A stretch of DNA of 64,000 nt from the NCBI GenBank assembly GCA_011390575.1, contig JAABSE010000002.1, forward strand, positions 1 through 64,000. Direction: 5' to 3'. Position 1 is the stretch's first letter, and each line of letters starts with the position of its first letter. The position numbers and the translations under genes are program-made. Source of the DNA: Sphingobacteriia bacterium (GTDB lineage Bacteria > Bacteroidota > Bacteroidia > Bacteroidales > UBA7960). Shown one piece after another: positions 49,438 through 64,000 of the stretch. A model generated the notes under the pieces. That model made no database searches, was not told the origin of the DNA, and saw only the letters and a list, made by a program, of their open reading frames with translations.

Positions 49438-49800
49438 TTAGGAAAGGCTGGTTAAAATTGCTTTCAGCTTTTCTTCTGTAATGGGTTTGCTGATAAGTCC
49501 ACTAAACCCTTTTTCTGTATAGTTATCAAAAAAATCTCCCGGATTGTGCGCTGTAATGGCAACGATGGGGGTTTTTTTCTTAATGCCCCTGAAATGCTTA
49601 CGAATATATTTTGTGGTCTCCAGTCCGTTTCTTACCGGCATTTCAATATCCATCAAAATAAGGTCATAAGAATTATTGCTTAGTTTTTCTATGGCCTGCT
49701 CTCCGTTTACCGCCTCGTCATAGGTATATCCCAAACTCCTGATAACGATTCCAGCCTGGAGACGGTTGGTATACAAATCATCTGTAACGAGTATATGCAT
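49438..49800 (-). CDS. Stand-alone response regulator receiver protein
   Basis: MHILVTDDLYTNRLQAGIVIRSLGYTYDEAVNGEQAIEKLSNNSYDLILMDIEMPVRNGLETTKYIRK...TPIVAITAH. Start corrected to 49800. Confidence 0.9.
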   Translation of the reverse strand: MHILVTDDLYTNRLQAGIVIRSLGYTYDEAVNGEQAIEKLSNNSYDLILMDIEMPVRNGLETTKYIRKHFRGIKKKTPIVAITAHNPGDFFDNYTEKGFSGLISKPITEEKLKAILTSLS

Positions 49801-50130: not shown

Positions 50131-50313
50131 ATGGAAACAAAAGAGAATTCTTATCAAATGTGGGTTAAACAAATATGTCCCCGAATATTCAGGCTTCAGC
50201 TGGTGAAAAAGGACTATCGGAAAGAGAATGTAGTTTTTGAAACCATATCTTCTACCATTCCCTCAACGCTTGAATTGATATTTTATTATAACCAGACAGA
50301 ACCCACGGCATAA
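50131..50313 (+). CDS. Small hypothetical protein at head of chemosensory locus
   Basis: METKENSYQMWVKQICPRIFRLQLVKKDYRKENVVFETISSTIPSTLELIFYYNQTEPTA; no family recognised. Confidence 0.4.
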   Translation: METKENSYQMWVKQICPRIFRLQLVKKDYRKENVVFETISSTIPSTLELIFYYNQTEPTA

Positions 50314-50392
50314 CATAATACCGGTACGAAAAGATATCAGCACGACCGTTGTAGTTACGAATTACAATTGCGGGCCGAAAATATTTCAGTGT

Positions 50393-52240
50393 ATGAGCGC
50401 AAACGAAAAACAGAATAAGAACGCAGATCTGAATGTCCTTGAGCAGGTGCTAAGGGTTTTTTTTACTATAGACAAAAAGATCCTTGAGTTGCACAAATGT
50501 TCTTCAGATGATTTTTTATCGCTGAACAAAACCCTCAAGCACAATCACGAACGGGCAAAATATATTACCCGCAATGTTACACTGGGCTTTGAAAAGATCG
50601 GTCCCGAAGGGAATCTGAAAAGCCTGGAAGTACTTAAAAACAGTTTTTATGAGTTGCGACAGGAAATACTCTCATTTGAAGGGGAACTGAATACCAACCT
50701 TGAAATTCTTGAACGTATTCAGTCGAACTTTAGTTTGATGTTTGTGCCTATCAACAATTTCAGACAAAATCTTACTTCTCTTAAACTTCTGCTCTCCAAT
50801 ATTAAACTGACCAACAATCTTTATGACCGGAGTGTGAAGAATTTTTCAGAAAATGAAACCCACCGCATTGAAGGTGTAATCAATAAAGTAAAGGAAAGCT
50901 GCCCTGTATTTGAGGAGAATATTTATGTAATCCAAAACCACCTTAAAATACTTTACCAGGATTTGGTCGGTATTAAGGATTTAATTTTTAACGATGTTCT
51001 GAAAAAGCTTGATGTCCTTGGTAGTGAGATCGATGTTATTGAAAAGCATAATATTGAAGCGGCAAAATTAAGGTCGAAAACCGATAGTATTGCCAAAAAC
51101 TGTACCAGTAGTGTTGGCAGTATCATTACCAATCTGCAGTATCACGATATTATCAGGCAGAAAATGGAACATATTCAGCAAACCCATAAACTTATTATTG
51201 CAGAGCTTAATAATAATGGCAACAAGGAGGGTATGGCTGCAGAAAAAGTATCCAATCCTTTCTTTCTGCAGATTCCGCAAATTATAGAAATACAGACTGC
51301 CCAACTGCTTCATACCAATAAGGAGTACCAGAATGCCATTGACCATATAAGCAAGAAGATGACAGAGATTGGTCAGGATATGTCAGCCCTTGCCAGGATA
51401 TTCAAATCTATATCTGTTTTTGAATACCAGGGCAGACAGGTATCCAGCGAGAGTATCAGCGAAACATTCAGCAAACTCATCAAAGACAAGCGACAGTATA
51501 TTGAAAAGTTTAAAATTCTTTCAGAAGATGTAAACCTGGTTCAGCGGATAGTCAGCAATTTGTTTGAAAAGTTTCAGGATTTGGAAATGATTGAAAACTC
51601 CCTGGAGCAAACCATTATTGACAAAATCAGTTTTGGCAATTTACTGGTGAGCGAAGAGGGAGAAACCGCTTCACAGGCCCAGCAAATATTAAAGCTTTAT
51701 GCAGACAATCATTTCGAAAAAAGTAAAATAAGAACCCTTTTCCAGAATACAGGCACCCAGTTGAAAGACTTTGTTAAGTGCAACAATACCTATGTTTATA
51801 ACAAGAAAGGAATGGAGAAGATCAATGAAAATCTCGATCTGGCGGAGCAAAACTTTGCTGCCGTGATGGAGAATCTTGATTTTCTGGAAGAGTTGCAACC
51901 CGAAATCCTGGATAAGAGCCAGGAGATAGAAACTGCAGGCAAAGAGGTGGTAAATAATGTTATGTACTATGAATTTTTTGAAAAAACCATTGATGATTTG
52001 ATTGGAAAATTTGAATCCATCAATAATTTACTCGTTGGACATGGCCACGGTTATATGGATAGTGCTGACCAGAAAAAGGGCCTTGAGCAAATACAGAAGT
52101 ATTATACCATGAAGTCTGAAAGGATTATTCATGATCACAGCATCCTGAACAGCAATAAGTCTAAAGGAGCAACCTTGGTTTTTGAAACGCCGGAGAAGTC
52201 AAATAATTATGACGAGGGTAATGATGTCGAATTTTTCTAG
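50393..52240 (+). CDS. Coiled-coil chemotaxis-associated protein with CheZ-like DxxxQ motif
   Basis: 615 aa, no TM segment apparent; NLQYHDIIRQKMEHIQQTHKLI at codons 247-268; second related motif VMYYEFFEKTIDDLIGKFESI near the C-terminus. Confidence 0.6.
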   Translation: MSANEKQNKNADLNVLEQVLRVFFTIDKKILELHKCSSDDFLSLNKTLKHNHERAKYITRNVTLGFEKIGPEGNLKSLEVLKNSFYELRQEILSFEGELNTNLEILERIQSNFSLMFVPINNFRQNLTSLKLLLSNIKLTNNLYDRSVKNFSENETHRIEGVINKVKESCPVFEENIYVIQNHLKILYQDLVGIKDLIFNDVLKKLDVLGSEIDVIEKHNIEAAKLRSKTDSIAKNCTSSVGSIITNLQYHDIIRQKMEHIQQTHKLIIAELNNNGNKEGMAAEKVSNPFFLQIPQIIEIQTAQLLHTNKEYQNAIDHISKKMTEIGQDMSALARIFKSISVFEYQGRQVSSESISETFSKLIKDKRQYIEKFKILSEDVNLVQRIVSNLFEKFQDLEMIENSLEQTIIDKISFGNLLVSEEGETASQAQQILKLYADNHFEKSKIRTLFQNTGTQLKDFVKCNNTYVYNKKGMEKINENLDLAEQNFAAVMENLDFLEELQPEILDKSQEIETAGKEVVNNVMYYEFFEKTIDDLIGKFESINNLLVGHGHGYMDSADQKKGLEQIQKYYTMKSERIIHDHSILNSNKSKGATLVFETPEKSNNYDEGNDVEFF

Positions 52241-52299
52241 ACAACCTTCTCATACTATCATAGTGCAGATAACTTTCCAAACCTTAACGAATTAAAGAT

Positions 52300-52617
52300 A
52301 TGCAAACATTTACCTTTCAGACTGACGTATCAGAAGATGACAAAGGAAAGAAAATCAGGATGATTTTCTCAGGCTATCTTACTTTGCAAAATGCATCGCA
52401 AATAAGAACTACCCTGGAAGAACAAAACAGGGATTTCGAAAATGTGGAGCTTTGGGCAAAAGATGTTTCAGGAATTGATGTGTCTTTTCTTCAGATCCTC
52501 GAATCATACCGGCAAACCCATTCTGTAGAGGGAAAAAAAGTGAAGATACTTATGGATCTTCCCTACGATTTAAAAACACTCCTTGCCAATGCAGGTATTG
52601 TCTATCCTGTAAAGTAA
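52300..52617 (+). CDS. STAS-domain protein
   Basis: IRMIFSGYLTLQNASQIRTTLEEQ...ELWAKDVSGIDVSFLQILESYRQTHSVEGKKVKI. Confidence 0.8.
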   Translation: MQTFTFQTDVSEDDKGKKIRMIFSGYLTLQNASQIRTTLEEQNRDFENVELWAKDVSGIDVSFLQILESYRQTHSVEGKKVKILMDLPYDLKTLLANAGIVYPVK

Positions 52618-52663
52618 AACAACCGAATTTAATCAATTAAATAGTTTATATACCTTAACCACT

Positions 52664-53029
52664 ATGGAAAAAACCATTCTCATTGTCGATGATTCAGAAA
52701 GTATCAGGGAAGTTGTAATTTTTACACTGGAGAATGCCGGATATGCTGTCTTGTCAGCTGTTGATGGTGCAGATGCACTGAAGCATCTCGATGGAAAGCA
52801 CATTGATTTGGTTATTACTGATTTGCACATGCCCAATATGGATGGTATTGGATTGATCAAAGAGATACGAAAAATGGATGCTTACAAATATACTCCCATT
52901 CTTTATCTGACTACCGAGTCGCAGCACAGCATAAAAATGGAAGCCAAACAGGCAGGCGCCACAGGATGGATTGTAAAACCCTTTATGCCCGAAAAACTTA
53001 TTGCTGCCATAGGGAAAATCATTAAGTAA
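52664..53029 (+). CDS. cheY: CheY-like response regulator (copy 1)
   Basis: MEKTILIVDDSESIREVVIFTLENAGY...DLVITDLHMPNMDG...YLTTES...GWIVKPF. Confidence 0.93.
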   Translation: MEKTILIVDDSESIREVVIFTLENAGYAVLSAVDGADALKHLDGKHIDLVITDLHMPNMDGIGLIKEIRKMDAYKYTPILYLTTESQHSIKMEAKQAGATGWIVKPFMPEKLIAAIGKIIK

Positions 53030-53094
53030 CTATGAAAAAGCCTGCAGAGAATTGAACCCGGAGGCTATTGAAAAATATTAAATCACAAAGGAAA

Positions 53095-53460
53095 ATGGAA
53101 AAAACGATAGTAATTGTTGACGATTCTGAAAGCATCAGGGAAGTGGTAGGGTTTACCCTTAACAATGCAGGGCACAAAGTATTATCAGCCGTTGATGGTC
53201 AGGATGCGTTACGCTTTTTTAATGGTGAGAAAATAGACCTGGTAGTTACCGACCTGCATATGCCTGTGATGGATGGAATAGAGCTGATTAGGGAAATAAG
53301 GAATAAAGATGATTACAAATTTGTACCCATCTTGTTTCTCACCACAGAATCGCAACAGGCAAAGAAAATGGAAGCCAAAGAAGCAGGCGCAACCGGTTGG
53401 ATCGTAAAACCTTTTGTCCCTGAAAAATTACTCGCCGCAATCAGTAAAGTTGTAAGATAA
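53095..53460 (+). CDS. cheY: CheY-like response regulator (copy 2)
   Basis: MEKTIVIVDDSESIREVVGFTLNNAGHKVLSAVDG...DLVVTDLHMPVMDG...GATGWIVKPFVPEKLLAAISK. Start corrected to 53095. Confidence 0.93.
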   Translation: MEKTIVIVDDSESIREVVGFTLNNAGHKVLSAVDGQDALRFFNGEKIDLVVTDLHMPVMDGIELIREIRNKDDYKFVPILFLTTESQQAKKMEAKEAGATGWIVKPFVPEKLLAAISKVVR

Positions 53461-55595
53461 TGGAACAGTTTAAAAAGAAGTTTCTGGAAGAAGCCAATGA
53501 TCTTATCAACAGTCTGGAAGATTCCTTGCTCATTCTGGAGGAAAAACCTACTGAAAAGAAGATCATCGAAGAAGTTTTCAGGGTAATGCATTCCCTGAAA
53601 GGTGGAAGCTCAATGTTCGGGTTTGCGAAAATGGATGCTTTCACCCATGAGCTGGAAACCATTTATGATATGATTCGCAGCGGAACACTCTCGGTAACGC
53701 GCGAGATACTGGATATTACACTGGCAGCTGTTGATCACCTGAAGGTTTTGCTCGAAAACGGTGAAGAGATTTCCGAAACTCAGCAAAACAACCAGAATAT
53801 CCTGCTTTCAAGAATTCATAAGATCATCAATAAAGACGCGCAGGAAGAAATTACTGCTGATACTGCCACTTCTAATGTGGCTGCACACAAAGAAAGTGAA
53901 GATAAATCGAAGGTCTACGAGAAAGTGCCTACCTATTTTATTGCTATCAAGCCCGAAGAGGATATCTTTCGCAATGGCACCAATCCTATGCTGCTCATTG
54001 ATGAGTTGCACACACTGGGCCATTGCAAAGCTTTTGTTAAAACTTCCCGGCTACCTTCCTTTGAACAACTTGACCCTGAGAAGGCATTTTTCTACTGGGA
54101 GGTGTTTCTGGCAACCGATAAATCCATTGATGAAATAAAAGATGTTTTCATATTTGTTGAAGATGTCTGTAATGTTACGATAAGCCGCATTGCTGATGAC
54201 AATCTGCTGGCCAAAACCGTTTTTATCCGGGAGCTGGATAATTTTATTGAACCGGTAAAAGAAACAGGACAATCAGAACTGGAAGCCTTTGTGGCAAAAT
54301 TAAAGTACAATGAACCTTCACTTCAGGAAGAAGGTCTTTCCTTCAGGGCAGATGAAGCAGCTCCCATGAAGCGACTCAGCATCAACAATATCAGGGTTTC
54401 GTCGGAAAAACTCGACGATCTGATGAACCTGGTTAGTGAGCTGGTCACCGTGCAAGCCAGCCTGTCGTTATTTGCCGATAACCAGGACAACCCGGAACTG
54501 GCCGCAATTTCAGAAAGCATTGAAAAGATATCTCGTCAGTTGCGCGACAATACTTTTGAAATATGCCTTATCCCTATTGAAACCATCATGATCCGGTTTA
54601 AGAGACTGGTAAGAGATTTGTCAAACGAACTGGATAAAGAAATTCAGTTTACCACCGAGGGAACAGAAACAGAACTGGACAAAAGCATTATCGACGGGCT
54701 TAGCGAACCCCTTATGCATATTTTTAGAAATGCCATTGACCATGGTATTGAACCCGCTGAAGATCGTCTTGCCAAAGGAAAACCCAGAAAAGGTAAAATT
54801 GCCTTTAAATCCTATTACTCGGGTACCAATGTTTACATTCAGGTAAAAGATGATGGTCGTGGCATTGATGTGGAAAAGATCAGGCAAAAAGCCATTGCAC
54901 GTGGATTTATCTCCCCGGAAGCGAATCTTTCCTACAAGGAATTGCTAAATCTTGTTTTTTTGCCCGGCTTTTCTACGGCAGCCAAAGTATCAGAGGTTTC
55001 CGGCCGCGGTGTTGGGCTTGATGTAGTGGTTAAGAAAATCAATGACATCAGGGGCGATGTGGAAATTGAATCACAGCTGGGAGTAGGAACAACTTTTACC
55101 ATCAAACTGCCCCTTACCCTTTCTATCATTGACGGGCTGCTGGTAAAAATTGACAAAACTTTCTTTGTTTTGCCGCTATCGTCAGTCGACAAATGTTTCG
55201 AGGTACAGGATGACGCTCTTGTTAAATCTTTCAATAACAAAATTGTCCTGGATGGCAAGCAGGTTCCCTTTATCAATCTGCGAAAAGAATTTGATATACA
55301 CGACAATAAGCCCATACTTCACCAGATCATCCAGGTAAATCATGATGATTTTAAAATAGGCTTATCTGTTGATACCGTTATTGGTGAATACCAGGCTGTT
55401 TTAAAACCGCTGGGCCGCATGTTTAAAGACCTTGAAATTGTATCAGGTGCAACCATCCTGGGTGATGGTACCATAGCACTGGTACTTGATCCGGCAAGGG
55501 TAATCAACACCTTTGACAGGGAAACCCTGGAAAGACGCGAAAAACTGTACCGGGAAAACCATAGAAAAGATATTCAGCTGCACGCTGGATACTAA
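53460..55595 (+). CDS. cheA: Chemotaxis histidine kinase CheA
   Basis: Hpt VFRVMHSLKGGSSMFGF; dimerisation; IFRNAIDHGIEPAEDR; GRGVGLDVV; C-terminal CheW-like domain. Confidence 0.95.
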   Translation: MEQFKKKFLEEANDLINSLEDSLLILEEKPTEKKIIEEVFRVMHSLKGGSSMFGFAKMDAFTHELETIYDMIRSGTLSVTREILDITLAAVDHLKVLLENGEEISETQQNNQNILLSRIHKIINKDAQEEITADTATSNVAAHKESEDKSKVYEKVPTYFIAIKPEEDIFRNGTNPMLLIDELHTLGHCKAFVKTSRLPSFEQLDPEKAFFYWEVFLATDKSIDEIKDVFIFVEDVCNVTISRIADDNLLAKTVFIRELDNFIEPVKETGQSELEAFVAKLKYNEPSLQEEGLSFRADEAAPMKRLSINNIRVSSEKLDDLMNLVSELVTVQASLSLFADNQDNPELAAISESIEKISRQLRDNTFEICLIPIETIMIRFKRLVRDLSNELDKEIQFTTEGTETELDKSIIDGLSEPLMHIFRNAIDHGIEPAEDRLAKGKPRKGKIAFKSYYSGTNVYIQVKDDGRGIDVEKIRQKAIARGFISPEANLSYKELLNLVFLPGFSTAAKVSEVSGRGVGLDVVVKKINDIRGDVEIESQLGVGTTFTIKLPLTLSIIDGLLVKIDKTFFVLPLSSVDKCFEVQDDALVKSFNNKIVLDGKQVPFINLRKEFDIHDNKPILHQIIQVNHDDFKIGLSVDTVIGEYQAVLKPLGRMFKDLEIVSGATILGDGTIALVLDPARVINTFDRETLERREKLYRENHRKDIQLHAGY

Positions 55596-55666
55596 AATCA
55601 ATTGAATCATAAGGGCTGATGCCATGGGTAAGTTCCACCTGGATTCACCTTTAACAATACAATAAA

Positions 55667-56476
55667 ATGGATAGACCTCTACACGAAAAAAACAGGAAAA
55701 AAGGCTTAAGCAAATCCATTATTGCTACTGTGCTTTTAAGTTTTCTGGCTCAGGGTACCGGTTTGTTATATGCAACACAACCAGAGAGACTGGCTGCCGA
55801 TCGGCCAGGCTTTGCATGGGGCACCCATACAGTTACACCGGGAAACTTTTACCTGGAAACAGGTTTTATGTATTCCTTTTTTTCGGACCCCATTTCCTAC
55901 AATTACAGTACTGTGCCTGTATTCAATTTCAGAATGGGGATAGTGGATAATATTGAATTGTTTGTTTCGTGGAATGGATGGGATATTTATCATCAGCAAT
56001 CTTCCGAGGATACAAATATGAGCAGTAATGAACTCAACCTGCCTTTGCTGGGTGCCAAATACAGGCTCATTGCCGCAGAAAACTACACAATTACTCTGCT
56101 GGGACTTCTGGAAAGTAATGACATTAATAACTCTTTCAAAGTTGATCCATCGCTGGCAATGCTATGGGATTATTCGTTAACCGACAACCTTGGTCTTTTT
56201 GGCATGGCACAAGCCGGAACACTTTCGACATACAGTGGAAACGAAATGGCATATTCTTTTTCAGCCGGTATCGGCTTCCCGGTATCTGAGAAAATTGAAG
56301 CTTTTGCTGAATATTATAATCGGTATGATACATTTTCAAAGAAACTATTTCATGGTAACGAAGCAGGCATCTTGTTTTTTCTGAATGAAGATACACAACT
56401 GGATGTTTTTGGCGGATATGGACACGGAAATCATATGCCCCATTATTTGGGAGCGGGATTCTCCCGAAGGCTTTAG
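55667..56476 (+). CDS. Outer-membrane beta-barrel protein (phenol-degradation MetA/transporter-like)
   Basis: LAADRPGFAWGTHTVTPGNFYLETGFMYSF...GIVDNIELFVSWNGWD...GAGFSRRL. Confidence 0.75.
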   Translation: MDRPLHEKNRKKGLSKSIIATVLLSFLAQGTGLLYATQPERLAADRPGFAWGTHTVTPGNFYLETGFMYSFFSDPISYNYSTVPVFNFRMGIVDNIELFVSWNGWDIYHQQSSEDTNMSSNELNLPLLGAKYRLIAAENYTITLLGLLESNDINNSFKVDPSLAMLWDYSLTDNLGLFGMAQAGTLSTYSGNEMAYSFSAGIGFPVSEKIEAFAEYYNRYDTFSKKLFHGNEAGILFFLNEDTQLDVFGGYGHGNHMPHYLGAGFSRRL

Positions 56477-56564
56477 ATGCCTGGTAGTGTGTGAGTTTTT
56501 AATAATAGTGAGAGTAAAAAAATTGGATTTAAATAAATATTGTTTTAACCAAAATTCTTAAAAA

Positions 56565-57086
56565 ATGAGCGAAACGAAAACTGGCGGTACATTAACTTCT
56601 TACCTCTCCTTCCGGCTGGGTGAAGAAATGTTTGCTGCCGATGTAAGTAAAGTGCTGGAAATACTTGAAATGCGGTCCATAACCAAGGTTCCGCGCTCTC
56701 CATCTTATATGAGAGGCGTTATCAACCTGCGGGGAAGTGTTCTGCCCGTGCTTGATACCCGCATTAAATTTGGGATGCCGGCCACCGAAGATACAGTAGA
56801 TACCTGTATTGTAGTTCTCAATGTGATCATGGAGGGTGAACCCCTTACGCTGGGTGCACTGGTAGATTCAGTAGAAGAAGTACTCGAACTGACCGAAACA
56901 GATATTGAAGCACCTCCCACCATTGGCAGCAAATTCAATCCCGAATATATGCATGGCATGGTGAAGATGGACGATAATTTTATCATGGTGCTCAATGTAG
57001 ACAAAGTATTCTCAACCGATGAGCTGGTTATGGTAGCCGAAACAGCTGACAAAGCCCGGCCCGCAGTTGAAGAAGTCAAAGAATAG
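56565..57086 (+). CDS. cheW: CheW scaffold protein
   Basis: SYLSFRLGEEMFAADVSKVLEILEMRSITKVPRSPSYMRGVINLRGSVLPVLDTRIKFGM. Confidence 0.95.
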   Translation: MSETKTGGTLTSYLSFRLGEEMFAADVSKVLEILEMRSITKVPRSPSYMRGVINLRGSVLPVLDTRIKFGMPATEDTVDTCIVVLNVIMEGEPLTLGALVDSVEEVLELTETDIEAPPTIGSKFNPEYMHGMVKMDDNFIMVLNVDKVFSTDELVMVAETADKARPAVEEVKE

Positions 57087-57243
57087 AGAACTTATTCTTC
57101 AAGTCAATTGCAGGGTTTTGTAATAAACTGAAGATAAAAGAGACCTGAAATTACATATTGCTGAAAAAACAGCAGGTCTGGTCTCGAAAGGGAAATTTTT
57201 GAAGAAAATAAACAGATTGCTAATAATTATAAAAGGAGGAAAC

Positions 57244-59337
57244 ATGAGATTTAAAGATTTAAAAACAGGAACCAAGATTCTTTCCGGTTTTATGCTGGTG
57301 GTATTGATAGCAGTAATTATCGGGGTAATAGGCCTGATGGGACTAAGAAGCGTTAATAACGCAGCCCATGTGGTGTCAGATGTCAGAATGCCCAGCATTC
57401 AATACCTGGGTGAAATGGCCGAAAACCTTGAAAGAGTGCAGGCCGGGTACAAACAATTGCTCGATAACCAGCTCACACGTGCTGACAGAGAGGCTATCCT
57501 CGCAGATATTACCAGTTCAAGGGCTTCTTACATTCAGGCCAATGAATTGTTTGCACCCCTGGACCAAACAGAGGAAGAAGCAAGGATATACGAGCAATTG
57601 TTGAAAGATATTGAAACATGGCGAAACATCAACGTCCAGCAGGTTGACCGATTGCACAATGATTTACTGGCAACGGATCTGCTCAATCCCATGCAGGTGA
57701 ACCGCAATCTGGAGCAATTTATGAAAGATCACTACGCCTTGCAGGTGCAAACCGTTAATGCCATCCGAACAATGAGTGCCTTTACCGGTGGAGACGATGC
57801 CACAACCTGTAACTTTGGTCAATGGCTACCTGATTTTAAGACCAATAATGCCGAAATCAACCGCAATATGCGCGATATGATGAGCCATCACGATGATTTT
57901 CATGCTGCAGTACACCGCATCAAACAGCTTATTCAGCAGGGTAATCGTGATGCGGCTTACCGGCACTACGAAAATGTAATGCTACCTGCTGCAGAAAATG
58001 TTTTCAACTATTTTGCCATTATCAATCGTGAGGCGCAGGAAGCTGTGAATGCTTATGAGGAAATGAGCCATGTTATTGCAACAGTTTCCAATCCTGCGCA
58101 TGTAGCAACCATGGCAAACTTTAATCAATTGCAGCAAATCAATGTTGCCGAAGCTGAGAAGGCTGTTCAATCGGGTGATGCTGCCAACACAGCCAGCAAT
58201 GCAATGATGCTTGCAGGTATCCTTGTTGGAGTTGTTATTGCCCTAATCCTTGGTTTTGCCATTACCCGTATGATAACCACCGGCGTTAACAAAGGGGTGG
58301 CTATTGCCGGCACCATTGCAGATGGCGATCTTACCATCAATGTGGATAATGATCTTCTTTCACAGAAAGATGAAATAGGGCAGCTGGCCAATGCCATGCA
58401 GCGAATGGTAGAGAAACTGCGCGATGTGATTGGCAGTGTTGTGTCTGGTTCTGACAATATTGCTTCTGCCAGCCAGCAAATGTCGGGCACGGCGCAGGAA
58501 ATGAGCCAGGGCAGCACCGAACAGGCTTCTTCAGCCGAAGAGGTCAGTTCTTCTATGGAGGAAATGGCCGCCAATATCCAGCAAAATACCGACAATTCGC
58601 GTGAAACGGAAAAGATAGCCCGCCAGGCAGAAGTTGGTATTGTTGAAAGCAGTAAGGCTTCTGAGCAGGCCGTCGGTGCCATGAGAGATATTGCTGAAAA
58701 AATAACCATCATTGGTGAAATTTCAAGACAAACCAACATTCTTGCTCTTAATGCTGCGGTAGAAGCCGCCAGGGCAGGAGAACACGGACGTGGATTCGCA
58801 GTAGTAGCAGCGGAAGTAAGAAAGCTTGCAGAACGTTCACAGGTTGCTGCTGCAGAAATTGATAAATTATCCAAATTTGGGGTAAGCATATCAGAAGAAG
58901 CAGGACAGAAACTGGCAGCTATCGTGCCTGAGATACAAAAGACTGCCAGCCTGGTGCAGGAAATCGCTGCAGCCAGCGTTGAGCAAAACTCAGGAGCTGA
59001 TCAGGTGAATTCTGCCATTCAGCAACTCAACCAGGTTACACAACAAAATGCTGCCGCCAGTGAAGAAATGGCAACCAGTAGTGAAGAACTTGCCAGCCAG
59101 GCCGATCAGTTGTTGGAAATGGTTTCTTATTTCAAACTTGACAAGCAGGCTACTGCTAAGAAAAAGCAGGCAAATGCTCAAAAATCGTTTGTAAAACCCG
59201 CCCAAAATTTTACTCCCAACAACCCCCAGACTCCCAAAATTTCCGGAAACGGAAATGGAAATGGGAGCAAAGGCACGAAGGAAGGCATTAAGCTTGATAT
59301 GGGCACTGTAAAAGATGATGAATACGAAAAATTCTGA
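57244..59337 (+). CDS. Methyl-accepting chemotaxis protein with CZB-like domain between the two TM segments
   Basis: TM1 [21 protein letters not shown]2 [26 protein letters not shown] hairpin tip [48 protein letters not shown]...[10 protein letters not shown]. Start at 57244 behind AGGAGG. Confidence 0.93.
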
Positions 59338-59351
59338 TTTTTATGATCCTA

Positions 59352-59387
59352 TTCCCGGGAGAGCTTTACCCTAGGCTTTCCCGGGAT
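59352..59387. terminator. Hairpin after the MCP gene (structure without a strong T-tract)
   Basis: TCCCGGGAGAGC...GCTTTCCCGGGA near-perfect stem. Confidence 0.45.
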
Positions 59388-59516
59388 TGATTTCCTGAAA
59401 AGGTTGATAAATATCTGGATTAGGCCTACATTTACCGTTGCAGAATTTTTGAAAAACAAAACAAAACATTATAATACAAACCAAACAACTGAATACGTTC
59501 TCCAAAACTAAAATGT

Positions 59517-59897
59517 ATGAATTACCAAACCGAACAGTTTCTGAAAAAGTATGATGCTGTAAAATTGCTCGACGAAGAAACATTAAATATGCTGAATGAA
59601 TATGCCAGTGGCAGTCCTGAAATTGTGCAGGATATTCTTGATTCTTTTGAACCTGAGGCTGTAAAACTTATGGATGAGATCAGAATTGCCCGGGAAAATG
59701 AAGATGCCCAACTGCTAAAAACGGCGGCTCATTCATTGGCGGGGATCTCCGGCTCCATTGGCGCAACCAGATTAAGGCAGGTAGCTTCTGATACGGAAAA
59801 TGCCATCAAAGCAGAGAATATAAAAGAAGCTTTGGACTTATCTGAGATCCTTATCAAAACCTATGACGAGCTTATAGCTCTGCTCAAAAAGATGTAG
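59517..59897 (+). CDS. Hpt-domain phosphotransfer protein
   Basis: LLKTAAHSLAGISGSIGATRLRQVA: Hpt motif with active His. Confidence 0.88.
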   Translation: MNYQTEQFLKKYDAVKLLDEETLNMLNEYASGSPEIVQDILDSFEPEAVKLMDEIRIARENEDAQLLKTAAHSLAGISGSIGATRLRQVASDTENAIKAENIKEALDLSEILIKTYDELIALLKKM

Positions 59898-59938
59898 CCC
59901 TCCTGATTCCGGAGGGTATAATTAGAAAAGGGGAAAAT

Positions 59939-62707
59939 ATGTTGAAAAAAAATGTACTAATAGTAGAAGATGATGCCATTATTGCCAATTTCATTCAGTT
60001 GAAACTGGAAGAAATGGGCTATCATGTGCCCTCCAAAGCACGAAATGCAAAACAGGCCATCGAAATGGCTGAACAGTTTCAGCCTGATCTTATTTTGATG
60101 GATGTGATGCTGGAAGGAGAGATGGATGGGATACAGGCAGTGGAGGAAATTACCAAAACCCTTGATATACCCGTTATTTATCTCACTGCAAGTTCTGATG
60201 AAAATACCATCGGAAGGTTGATGAAAACAGAACCCCATGGTTTTCTCATCAAGCCTTTTGATGACAGAATTCTCTCGTCTGCAGTGCATATCGCTGTATA
60301 CAGACATAAGACCAAAAAAGAATTGTTTGATACCAAAGAAATGCTTCGAACCACCATCGAATCTATTGATGATATGGTTTTTAGTATTGATAACAAAGGG
60401 ATGTTTACCCATTATCACTCAGGAAACAAACACCAGCTAAACCGTTTTCAATCCGAAAATGTAGTAGGAAAAAGCATTGTGGAAGTATTTCCGGCTGAAG
60501 TAGCTGAAAAAATCCAGGAATCATTTCAATGGGTGAAAGATTTCAAAGAACCACATTCTGTTGAATTCAAAATTGAAGAGAAAGACAACATATGGTGGTT
60601 CAGGACAAAACTAACTTTGCGTAAGGATCTGAATGGAAACGTGCCGGGCATTACCATGGTGATGTCTGATATTACCCAAAACAAAAATATGCACCAGGAG
60701 TTGCGGGTAAGCCAGGATAAACTCAATGAGGCACAAAATATTGCCGGACTGGGTTCATGCGATATTTTCTACCGCGAGAATAAGGTTGTGTGCAACGACA
60801 TGTATTTCAAACTCCTGGATATTGATGATAAAATCAGAATGAATAATTTCACGGAAGAAAATCTACTTGAAATTATCCATCCGGAAGACAGATCACGCTA
60901 CAAGATGCTTAAGAAGCGCGTCATGGAAGAAGAAATGAATGAATTTTCCATCAATTTCAGGGTTCTGGACAGAAAGGCCAATGTCAGGTATGTTCATATG
61001 GCTGGTCAAATCAGGTATGACAAAAACGGGGAGCCGGAAAGAATGACCAATACCCTGCAGGATGTTACCTGGCAGAAAAATAGTGAAAAGCTGAGACAGG
61101 ATGTGGAGCTGGCCAGGAAAACTGCCGAGATGAAACAAAGGTTTTTTGCCAGGCTCAGTCACGAAATCCGCAACCCGGTCAATGGTATAACAGGTCTTTT
61201 GCAACTTTTGGAAAGAACCCGGCTCGACGAGGAACAAAAAAGTTACACCCAGGCGCTTCAGGTAGCATCTGATACCCTTTTGAATTTACTCAACGATGTA
61301 CTGGATTATTCTAAAATAGAATCAGGCATGATGAAAATTAAACCATGCGATTTTAGTGTTAGAAAATCTCTGAAAAACCTTCAAACCTATTTTACTCCTA
61401 TTGCATTGGAGAAAAATCTCGAATTCAGATATAAAGTCCCGGATGATATACCTCAAAATATTGTAGCTGATGAAAGCAAAATATTGCAGGTGTTGAATAA
61501 CCTTATTTCCAATGCCCTCAAATTTACCCGGAGAGGATTTGTAGAAGTGCGTCTGTCAACTCAAAGCAGAGTAAATGAGGAGTTGAATTTGCTGGTAGAG
61601 GTTGAGGACTCCGGATCAGGAATAAAATCAGAAGACCAGAAAGAATTGTTTAAGGATTTCTCGCAACTGGAGAACGAGACTTCAATTAAAGTTAAAGGCA
61701 GTGGACTTGGACTATCCATCTGCAGGCAGTTGGTTACATTGATGGGTGGAGAAATTGGAGTGCGAAGTGATGAAAGTAAAAAAGGAACTACCTTCTGGTT
61801 TACCCTTCCGGTTTTGATAGCAGCAGATCAGACTCATAATGATGAAAAAACAACAGAGGGAAAGGAAACCGAAAGGAAGAACCTTAATTGCTCTGTATTG
61901 CTGGTAGAGGATATGATTGTCAACCAGAAAGTCATAAAACTCATCCTGGAAGCTATGGGCTGCAATGTGGCTGTTGCTTCCAACGGGCAGCAGGCAGTAG
62001 AAATGTTCAGAGAAACGGCTATAAATGCTTTCAATATATTTGGACGTATACATTATGATATCATCCTCATGGATCAGATGATGCCGGTTCTGGATGGATT
62101 AACTGCCCTTCAAATCTTAAAGAAAGAACATGAAAAGCTACCTCCGGTTATTGTGTTGACTGCCGATGAGTCTTTTGCTCAAAACAATAAGTACCTGGAA
62201 TCCGGTTTTGATGATTGCATCATAAAACCCGTAAAAACAGATGATCTGTATCAAAAGATAAAAAATCTTACAGGCCAGATACAGACCCTCACAAATGAAG
62301 AGAAACTGGAAGTATTTTCTCTCGAAAGTGTTGAAGAAAAACCTGTAATCAATAATACAACTCTGGATTTGATCATTAAAAATGCCAGACAAAATAACTT
62401 TGATATAGGGTTGCTCTTCGAGTCCTTTTTTGAAGATATGGAAGGGATCTATCAACAATCACTTACAGCCATTGAAATGAACGATCACAATGCACTACGT
62501 TTGATTGTAATGACCGTAAAAGGACTCTCAGGAAATATGGGTGCCTCTCAGTTGCACCTGGTGGCCAAACTCATGGATCGGTATATCAGAAATGATCAGT
62601 TTGAGGAAGCAACCGCTCTGTTGCCTCTTTTGACAGAAAAATATTCTGTTTTTAAAAGTACCCTCGAAACACAATACCTGAAAGCTCCGGCAGAAACAGA
62701 AAGGTAA
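59939..62707 (+). CDS. Hybrid histidine kinase REC-PAS-PAS-HisKA-HATPase-REC with degenerate Hpt
   Basis: NVLIVEDDAIIANFIQLKLEEMGY..LILMDVMLEGEMDG; FFARLSHEIRNPVNGITGL; GSGLGLSICRQLVTLMGG; REC IILMDQMMPVLDG. Confidence 0.92.
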   Translation: MLKKNVLIVEDDAIIANFIQLKLEEMGYHVPSKARNAKQAIEMAEQFQPDLILMDVMLEGEMDGIQAVEEITKTLDIPVIYLTASSDENTIGRLMKTEPHGFLIKPFDDRILSSAVHIAVYRHKTKKELFDTKEMLRTTIESIDDMVFSIDNKGMFTHYHSGNKHQLNRFQSENVVGKSIVEVFPAEVAEKIQESFQWVKDFKEPHSVEFKIEEKDNIWWFRTKLTLRKDLNGNVPGITMVMSDITQNKNMHQELRVSQDKLNEAQNIAGLGSCDIFYRENKVVCNDMYFKLLDIDDKIRMNNFTEENLLEIIHPEDRSRYKMLKKRVMEEEMNEFSINFRVLDRKANVRYVHMAGQIRYDKNGEPERMTNTLQDVTWQKNSEKLRQDVELARKTAEMKQRFFARLSHEIRNPVNGITGLLQLLERTRLDEEQKSYTQALQVASDTLLNLLNDVLDYSKIESGMMKIKPCDFSVRKSLKNLQTYFTPIALEKNLEFRYKVPDDIPQNIVADESKILQVLNNLISNALKFTRRGFVEVRLSTQSRVNEELNLLVEVEDSGSGIKSEDQKELFKDFSQLENETSIKVKGSGLGLSICRQLVTLMGGEIGVRSDESKKGTTFWFTLPVLIAADQTHNDEKTTEGKETERKNLNCSVLLVEDMIVNQKVIKLILEAMGCNVAVASNGQQAVEMFRETAINAFNIFGRIHYDIILMDQMMPVLDGLTALQILKKEHEKLPPVIVLTADESFAQNNKYLESGFDDCIIKPVKTDDLYQKIKNLTGQIQTLTNEEKLEVFSLESVEEKPVINNTTLDLIIKNARQNNFDIGLLFESFFEDMEGIYQQSLTAIEMNDHNALRLIVMTVKGLSGNMGASQLHLVAKLMDRYIRNDQFEEATALLPLLTEKYSVFKSTLETQYLKAPAETER

Positions 62708-62744
62708 AAAAAGTAACTAATCTTCAAAATATCTCATATAATAT

Positions 62745-63635
62745 ATGTCTGAAGTTTTTTCAACTCAACCTGAGAAGGAGACATTGAATTCAATGTCTGC
62801 AGTATATAAGCTGCAAATGTCCGACGAAATCTTTGATAAACTAAGTCAGTTTATATATTCTGAGTATGGCATAAAAATGCCGAAAGCAAAAAAGGTGATG
62901 CTTCAGAGTCGCCTGCAAAGGCGTCTTCGCGATATGAAAATGAACTCTTATGAGCAATACTGCGATTTTGTTTTCAGCAAAGAAGGGGAGGCCATGGAGC
63001 TGGTACACATGATTGATGTGGTTACTACCAACAAGACAGACTTTTTCAGGGAGCCCACCCATTTTGACTTTATAAGACATACTGTTTTGCCGGAGTTTAT
63101 TGCCCGTAACAGGCAAAAAACCACCATGAAATTCTGGAGTGCAGGCTGCTCAAGTGGTGAAGAGGTTTACACCCTGGCCATGGTGGTGTCCGAATTTATG
63201 GATAATAACCGGAATATGGATTATTCCATCCTCGGAACAGATATTTCTTCTCGCATTCTTCAGAAGGCTTACGATGCTGTTTATACTGAAGAAAGGGTTA
63301 TTAACATTCCGTTGGAACTTAAGAGAAAATATTTTCTTCGCTCCAAAGACAGGGTAAAGCCAACGGTGAGGCTCATACCCGAGATTCGCAAAAAGGCTAT
63401 CTATCAGCGCTTAAACTTTATGGATGACAGCTACCCGGTGCAGGAAAAATTCGATGTGATTTTTTGCCGCAATGTACTGATTTACTTCGACCGCGAAACC
63501 CAGCAGAAAGTAATCAACCGGTTGTGCAATCATTTAAAAACCGGTGGATATTTTTTCCTGGGTCACAGTGAATCCATAACAGGAATGAATGTACCGCTGG
63601 TGCAGCTCAAACCTACCGTATTCATGAAAGTTTAA
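62745..63635 (+). CDS. cheR: Chemotaxis methyltransferase CheR
   Basis: FWSAGCSSGEEVYTLAMV; ILGTDISSRILQKA; FDVIFCRNVLIYFDRETQQKV; YFFLGHSESI. Confidence 0.95.
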   Translation: MSEVFSTQPEKETLNSMSAVYKLQMSDEIFDKLSQFIYSEYGIKMPKAKKVMLQSRLQRRLRDMKMNSYEQYCDFVFSKEGEAMELVHMIDVVTTNKTDFFREPTHFDFIRHTVLPEFIARNRQKTTMKFWSAGCSSGEEVYTLAMVVSEFMDNNRNMDYSILGTDISSRILQKAYDAVYTEERVINIPLELKRKYFLRSKDRVKPTVRLIPEIRKKAIYQRLNFMDDSYPVQEKFDVIFCRNVLIYFDRETQQKVINRLCNHLKTGGYFFLGHSESITGMNVPLVQLKPTVFMKV

Positions 63636-63679
63636 GTAGTGCAATTAAGTTGAAGTTATAATACCAATAAACCAAAAAT

Positions 63680-64000
63680 ATGATAACCGACGATCAATTA
63701 TTGAACGAACTGGAAAAGAGGTTCAGGGAAAACAAAGATTCAGTACTTCAGCTAAAGAAGATGACCAGCGAACTGAAAGAGGTCAACAAAAAGCTTGAGG
63801 AATCTGAAGCCCTCAAGACCCATTTCATTTCCAATATTACCAATGAAATTATCAACCCTTTTGCAGCTATACTGGGCTTAAGCCGAAATATCCTGGATGT
63901 AAAAAAGGAGAACTGGGACAAAGTGATTTCGATGGTGCATCTCATTCATTCAGAGGCATTTAATCTTGATTTCCAATTAAAAAATGTTTTTGCAGCTGCC
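63680..64000 (+). CDS. Histidine-kinase-like protein with H-box His replaced by Asn; truncated by window edge
   Basis: MITDDQLLNELEKRFRENKDSVLQLKKMTSELKEVNKKLEESEALKTHFISNITNEIINPFAAILGLSRNIL...; aligned with 'F(L)AN(V)SHE(I)R.P...ILG'. Confidence 0.65.
   Translation, partial: MITDDQLLNELEKRFRENKDSVLQLKKMTSELKEVNKKLEESEALKTHFISNITNEIINPFAAILGLSRNILDVKKENWDKVISMVHLIHSEAFNLDFQLKNVFAAA

Follow-up and report, generated by a model that had tools for sequence, protein, structure and literature searches.

The stretch of DNA analysed here (hereafter, the window) comprises the first 64,000 nucleotides of contig JAABSE010000002.1 (106,471 bp), which belongs to a Bacteroidales assembly of 4.1 Mb in 198 contigs (GCA_011390575.1, completeness 89.9%). 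Its right end carries a chemosensory (che) operon. An earlier note, made from the letters of the window, had listed a run of Che genes on the + strand. We found that all these open reading frames (ORFs) are intact and lie on that strand exactly where the note had placed them, and Pfam supports both CheYs, CheA, CheW, the methyl-accepting chemotaxis protein (MCP), the Hpt protein, the hybrid kinase, CheR, and the HATPase domain of the last ORF. The note had also reported that CheB was not visible. This was an artefact of the window edge: extending the sequence to the right, as the note had proposed, revealed cheD (contig positions 64594-65073) and cheB (65106-66185) directly past the end of the window, and the operon extends to ~66.2 kb on the contig. 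Because these two genes adjoin the window edge, the operon is complete, including the adaptation genes, and encodes CheA with its P1 histidine, CheW, an MCP, CheY, CheR, and CheB. The gene content, its conservation and order, and the lack of flagella are direct observations, whereas the enzymatic roles and the gliding output are inferred. Altogether, we consider it rather likely that flagellum-free Bacteroidales carry here a complete chemosensory operon, of a type conserved in Bacteroidota, in which a DxxxQ protein (CheZL), a STAS protein, and a His-less kinase-like protein (AsnHK) would play the roles proposed below and the output would be gliding.

The conserved part of the operon is encoded entirely on the + strand and starts with CheZL (50393..52240), a 615-aa all-helical protein with invariant DxxxQ motif residues and a conserved tail, which we propose to be a phosphatase of phosphorylated CheY (CheY~P). 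Next come a single-domain STAS protein, identified by its fold and placed like CheS between CheZL and CheA (52300..52617), and CheY1 (52664..53029; Pfam 1.5e-29), which keeps the equivalents of Asp57, Thr87, and Lys109. CheA (53460..55595) comprises a P1 domain with its His, as well as dimerisation, HATPase, and CheW-like domains, according to Pfam and to its alignment with E. coli CheA. CheW (56565..57086; Pfam 9.5e-37) and the MCP (57241..59337), also recognised by Pfam, are followed at some distance by CheR (62745..63635; Pfam 7e-61), which aligns without gaps to the beta-subdomain of E. coli CheR and belongs to the pentapeptide-dependent type. Finally, AsnHK, a HisKA/HATPase protein of 300 aa with conserved N55, E56, and N59 and the glycines of the ATP lid, starts at position 63680, reaches the end of the window at 64000, and continues to contig position 64582.

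CheZL homologues are present in 33 of the 198 genomes of the order that we searched (166 of high quality, 28 of which carry CheZL), at ~28% identity. All 33 also encode CheA, as compared with 60 of the 198 overall (p=2e-21, uncorrected for relatedness). When one conserved CheZL peptide was scanned against 84,980 species, a strict procedure that distant members would escape, we recovered 80 loci, all of them titled as Bacteroidales, Salinivirgaceae, named Bacteroidales species, or Bacteroidetes/Bacteroidota. A STAS gene lies in between in each of the 60 loci where CheA follows CheZL, and the order CheR-AsnHK-CheD holds in 35/35 loci in which the three genes are present. Two mis-framed rows, L017 and L034, were excluded from the subsequent alignments of homologues. 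Hence, this comparison of synteny, also proposed in the note, shows that a core CheZL(DxxxQ)–STAS–CheY–CheA–CheW–(MCP)–CheR–AsnHK–CheD–CheB recurs across Bacteroidales. The MCP gene is not adjacent in some copies. The note had regarded the STAS protein and the kinase lacking His as non-standard additions together with an outer-membrane barrel, an Hpt protein, and a hybrid kinase; the former two, like the DxxxQ protein, proved to be part of the order-wide core, whereas the latter are indeed additions. It had also held that flagellar genes next door and a well-described identical locus in many relatives would speak against its reading. The locus does occur in many relatives, but those in Bacteroidales have no flagella and we found no published description of this operon in Bacteroidetes in the open-licence PMC text, so that an unseen report is possible. 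Two of the core proteins, CheZL and AsnHK, are without a described function.

No FlhA was found in this genome, and none scored above the cut-off in the 198 genomes of the order. By this marker the operon does not belong to a flagellar chemotaxis system, and because FlhA is missing from the genome and the order alike, its Che proteins have a target other than the flagellum, as the note had anticipated.

At the input side, each arm of the MCP falls short of that of Tar by one heptad, which places the receptor in the 34H class. It has two transmembrane segments and ends in DEYEKF, a CheR-binding tail of a kind found in 22 of 27 MCP ORFs from related loci, some of these ORFs being truncated. The combination of 34H with a C-terminal pentapeptide is the F8 pattern (PMC11253619), and the receptor displays both traits. 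In this sense, the operon resembles F8 systems such as cluster II of Pseudomonas syringae, where a 34H receptor with a CheR-binding pentapeptide is likewise accompanied by the matching CheR (PMC11253619). This likeness comes from the receptor and CheR only, and CheZL, STAS, and AsnHK set the Bacteroidales operon apart as core components. Between the two transmembrane helices lies a 4HB sensor region with a sub-threshold match to CZB (E=2.5e-6; 28.2 bits against a cut-off of 29.4) and candidate Zn ligands; extracytoplasmic CZBs are rare, at about 4% (PMC8262984). We propose that this transmembrane receptor, with its extracytoplasmic 4HB/CZB-like region, would form an array with CheW and CheA, that CheR, CheD, and CheB would adapt it, and that CheA would phosphorylate the stand-alone CheY. 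Apart from this receptor, a single MCP was found in the genome (L011, G000:C138:4054-4503); it matches the operon 34H MCP in its signalling arms and lacks the CheR-binding tail.

As for the output, CheY~P would now act on something other than a flagellum, most likely on gliding driven by the type IX secretion system (T9SS). Gliding is the leading candidate, although we put it forward tentatively and at somewhat less than even odds. The T9SS motor gene gldL accompanies CheZL in each of the 33 carriers within the order, this genome included. Moreover, the one named cultured strain carrying the operon, Perlabentimonas gracilis (L068), is described as a gliding anaerobe in a title cited in PMC11122141. 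The retraction ATPase PilT, the marker of type IV pilus (Tfp) systems, gave no match over the cut-off in this genome or in the 32 other carriers of the order. Excerpts of two reports describe PorX, a CheY-like receiver, in the control of the T9SS and gliding (PMC5005315, PMC10951265); such a receiver acting on the T9SS motor would follow the same output logic that we propose, although the operon encodes neither a PorX-type output domain nor any T9SS gene. Two facts weigh against gliding: gldL is found in 183 of the 198 genomes of the order (92%), so that its presence is merely permissive, and there is no gliding gene within the operon. In excerpts of a 2025 study of T9SS rotational bias, control is assigned to GldJ and CheY figures only as the flagellar analogue (PMC12239597). 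The occurrence of this complete operon in non-flagellated Bacteroidales, a cultured glider among its carriers, bears on how gliding Bacteroidota steer.

Instead of motility, the pathway might control gene expression, adhesion, or biofilm formation, as in systems devoted to alternative cellular functions (ACF), with CheA feeding the hybrid kinase, the Hpt protein, and the divergent receiver encoded next to the operon. In this lineage, an Hpt protein and a REC-PAS-HisKA-REC-Hpt hybrid kinase do sit inside the operon, many copies elsewhere are flanked by a divergent receiver gene, and the MCP has a CZB-like region, a domain tied to adhesion and biofilm in other systems (PMC8262984). However, nearly all other copies lack the Hpt and hybrid kinase genes at this place, the full set of CheR, CheB, and CheD together with a probable CheY phosphatase points to fast signalling, and the named isolate with the operon, to judge from the cited title, glides. 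We therefore regard a purely non-motile output as unlikely.

The assignment of CheZL as a CheY~P phosphatase, which we consider probable, is based on its motif, its gene position, and its co-occurrence with CheA. We aligned 92 homologues, including five that belong to the phylum but not to the class, and Q249, D252, Q256, and H260 are invariant among them (92/92), in line with the DxxxQ motif picked out in the earlier note. F615 is the last residue in every row in which this column is filled, and a Glu stands two positions before it in 90/92. In CheZ, the DxxxQ residues are catalytic (PMC3510030), and the sequence that holds them in the E. coli protein, DFQDLTGQ, is similar to the CheZL motif Q[YF]xDIIRQ. 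Likewise, tails such as ...DDNVEFF and ...DDNIELF are reminiscent of the E. coli CheZ tail, ...DDLLDSLGF. The C-terminal tail of CheZ binds CheY. CheZL would be a dedicated phosphatase that presents Asp252 and Gln256 as CheZ does and docks CheY probably via its C-terminal E-x-F tail. In addition, hhalign matches one half of the protein to the other (E=4e-7; score 53, as compared with 30 for a reversed control and at most 24 for heptad-shuffled controls), and this alignment sets D252 and Q256 opposite E527 and K531. From these data we infer a tandem duplication with one live and one degenerate site, in which case a single CheZL chain would correspond to a dimer of CheZ. Both proteins are helical, with an aromatic-x-D-x-x-x-Q motif and an acidic C-tail ending in F; unlike CheZ, CheZL is apparently duplicated and about three times longer.

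Several results weigh against this assignment. CheZL and E. coli CheZ share no significant sequence match (hhalign P=0.45), although the sole alignment spans the motif region. Neither Pfam nor NCBIfam has a family for CheZL. The AlphaFold model, nearly all helix (pLDDT 78.5, pTM 0.60), retrieved only generic SMC-type coiled coils from the PDB with Foldseek, at tiny TM-scores, and we set these matches aside. Furthermore, in some gut Bacteroidales the gene for CheZL stands apart from che clusters. CheZL might then be a soluble receptor-like protein or a scaffold that organises the array rather than a phosphatase; its helices are very long, the solved structures that it matches are coiled coils, MCPs among them, and a weak match to MCPsignal was obtained for 2 of 27 members (best E=0.004). 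Yet the MCP hairpin is absent from CheZL, and conservation does not follow the coil but is highest in the segment QYxDIIRQKxxH and in the three C-terminal residues, which makes a scaffold role improbable. A search of PDB sequences with the CheZL profile gave coiled-coil noise, including MCPs, and was discarded. The many loci in which CheZL has the same DxxxQ motif and C-tail and no che cluster around it are rumen or gut Bacteroidales by title (L057, L058, L063, L065, L066, L070, L072, L080, L082, L083, L084, L092, and L095). The gene comes after a glycosyltransferase-like gene in L057, L080, and L095, several of these loci have a CheW gene nearby, and in L057 it is adjoined by ABC genes that look like gldF and gldG.

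In AsnHK, the H-box reads SN[IV]xNE[IL][IV]NPF in all 36 homologues, so that an Asn replaces the phospho-accepting His, as the note had observed; N55, E56, and N59 are invariant. The ATP boxes are intact, with N174, N178, D206, G208, G210, G236, G238, and G240 also invariant, and an acidic stretch followed by F closes the C-terminus of nearly all homologues. Within the E/DxxT/N motif of HisKA proteins, the T/N residue is the only one whose requirement is confined to phosphatase activity (PMC3510030). AsnHK would not autophosphorylate on the usual His while keeping this phosphatase residue, and could act as an ATP-regulated accessory phosphatase or as a CheY-binding adaptor. These residues are most simply explained by a phosphatase or adaptor devoid of kinase activity, a view that we hold provisionally, as a nearly even call. 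HisKA kinases with phosphatase activity share with AsnHK the HisKA-like helix with ExxN and the intact ATP-binding boxes; they differ from it in the position of the His, occupied by Asn in 36/36, and in the acidic C-tail ending in F, which AsnHK has as its own. CheZL, the MCP, and AsnHK all end in an acidic stretch plus a closing aromatic residue (GNDVEFF at window position 52237, DDEYEKF at 59334, and DGDEIF at contig position 64580, respectively). These tails may reflect a shared docking partner or competition for one.

The STAS gene named in the note is sub-threshold by sequence (Pfam E=0.0097) and clear by fold: the AlphaFold model (pLDDT 92.5) matches TM1442/SpoIIAA of the SpoIIAA/RsbV family in Foldseek (E=1e-6 to 1e-5), and this modelled fold makes the assignment firm. 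D60 and Q65 are invariant, and the position of the SpoIIAA phospho-Ser is occupied by S/T in 33 of 53 sequences and otherwise by A/G/P. With a STAS fold encoded beside CheA, the protein has two traits of the CheS type. In alphaproteobacterial che operons, CheS is a STAS protein that binds CheA, and CheT is a DxxxQ CheZ-like phosphatase (PMC12654446). By analogy, the pairing of STAS with CheZL appears to be a close parallel of CheS with CheT, and the STAS protein may bind CheA and tune phosphotransfer as CheS does. The operons of Sinorhizobium meliloti and Agrobacterium also combine these two components with CheY, CheA, CheR, CheB, and CheD (PMC12654446). Differently from the operon described here, their hosts are flagellated and no His-less kinase has been described in them; CheT is not described as a duplicated protein of 600 aa, and its likeness to CheZL is drawn from descriptions. 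The grouping of the STAS protein with SpoIIAA/RsbV by Foldseek, along with an AsnHK that retains the ATP site and not the His, might suggest a partner-switching pair, i.e. a HATPase Ser/Thr kinase and an anti-sigma antagonist, grafted onto Che. We set this very improbable scheme aside because the phospho-site is not conserved; moreover, AsnHK is a HATPase_c protein with a HisKA-like helix rather than of the RsbW type, and the L132 carrier has STAS and no AsnHK between CheR and CheD.

Outside the class, FlhA is present in 6/6 CheZL carriers, as compared with 89/396 in a sample of the phylum (p=1e-4, uncorrected for relatedness). Five of them have a clear core: CheZL, CheY, and CheA are encoded in all five, and STAS was recognised in three. 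The remaining carrier, G247, matches only distantly. In the two carriers with this stretch in view, CheR lies directly beside CheD with no AsnHK. In the CheA tree, the Bacteroidales sequences group in a single clade (SH-aLRT 100), outside which fall those of the flagellated carriers. The simplest history is that an ancestral system was kept after loss of the flagellum and that AsnHK was gained in Bacteroidales; the ancestor probably ran the cluster in a flagellated cell. This history is weakened by the non-independence of the six carriers, three of which share a family and only five of which have a clear core. Besides, all six also have PilT-like genes, so that pili rather than the flagellum may have been the output of the ancestral system. 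A standard cluster for flagellar chemotaxis in an assembly (89.9% complete, 198 contigs) that missed the flagellar genes would agree with the same cluster in flagellated relatives, but is extremely improbable given FlhA above the cut-off in none of the order genomes, high-quality CheZL carriers included. The full scenario, in which the flagellum was lost, the Che system kept, AsnHK added as an adaptor, CheY~P rewired so as to set the direction of the T9SS gliding motor or its reversals, and the signal ended by a one-chain duplicated CheZ, is speculative and, taken whole, rather doubtful. If true, the rewired operon would provide the chemotactic control that has been missing from the picture of gliding in Bacteroidota. 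In three of the out-of-class carriers (L133:6288-7516, L134:1694-2910, and L135:7420-8738), a CheR-like gene stands beside a metallo-beta-lactamase-looking gene just after CheA, possibly as an additional sensor.

This lineage has added to the core a small ORF, CheY2, the barrel, Hpt, and the hybrid kinase. The small ORF (50134..50313, +; ~59 aa) has no Pfam match and same-place homologues only in the close relatives L043-L047. CheY2 (53095..53460, +; Pfam 1.1e-28) is a duplicate, one CheY being found at this place in most relatives, and its ORF overlaps that of CheA by one base at 53460, which suggests translational coupling. The outer-membrane beta-barrel (55667..56476, +) is predicted from sequence appearance alone, with no match to a Pfam family; as far as truncated contigs allow us to see, it is restricted to three near relatives (L043-L045), and Hpt and the hybrid kinase occur at this place only in L044. 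The Hpt protein (59517..59897, +; Pfam 3e-11) precedes the hybrid kinase (59939..62707, +), in which Pfam recognises REC-PAS-PAS-HisKA-HATPase-REC-Hpt. The merging of Che with multi-step phosphorelays put forward in the note thus applies to this small lineage and not to the system at large. Upstream, a single-domain response regulator is encoded divergently from the operon (49438..49800, -; Pfam Response_reg 7e-23), and many relatives have a divergent receiver gene just upstream as well. Downstream of cheB, a PAS hybrid kinase is encoded whose N-terminal region is hydrophobic. Elsewhere in the genome, there are four more CheB-type methylesterase domains (L007, L008, L009, and L010, on contigs C116, C109, and C22), two of which sit in very long ORFs of 998 and 1247 aa.

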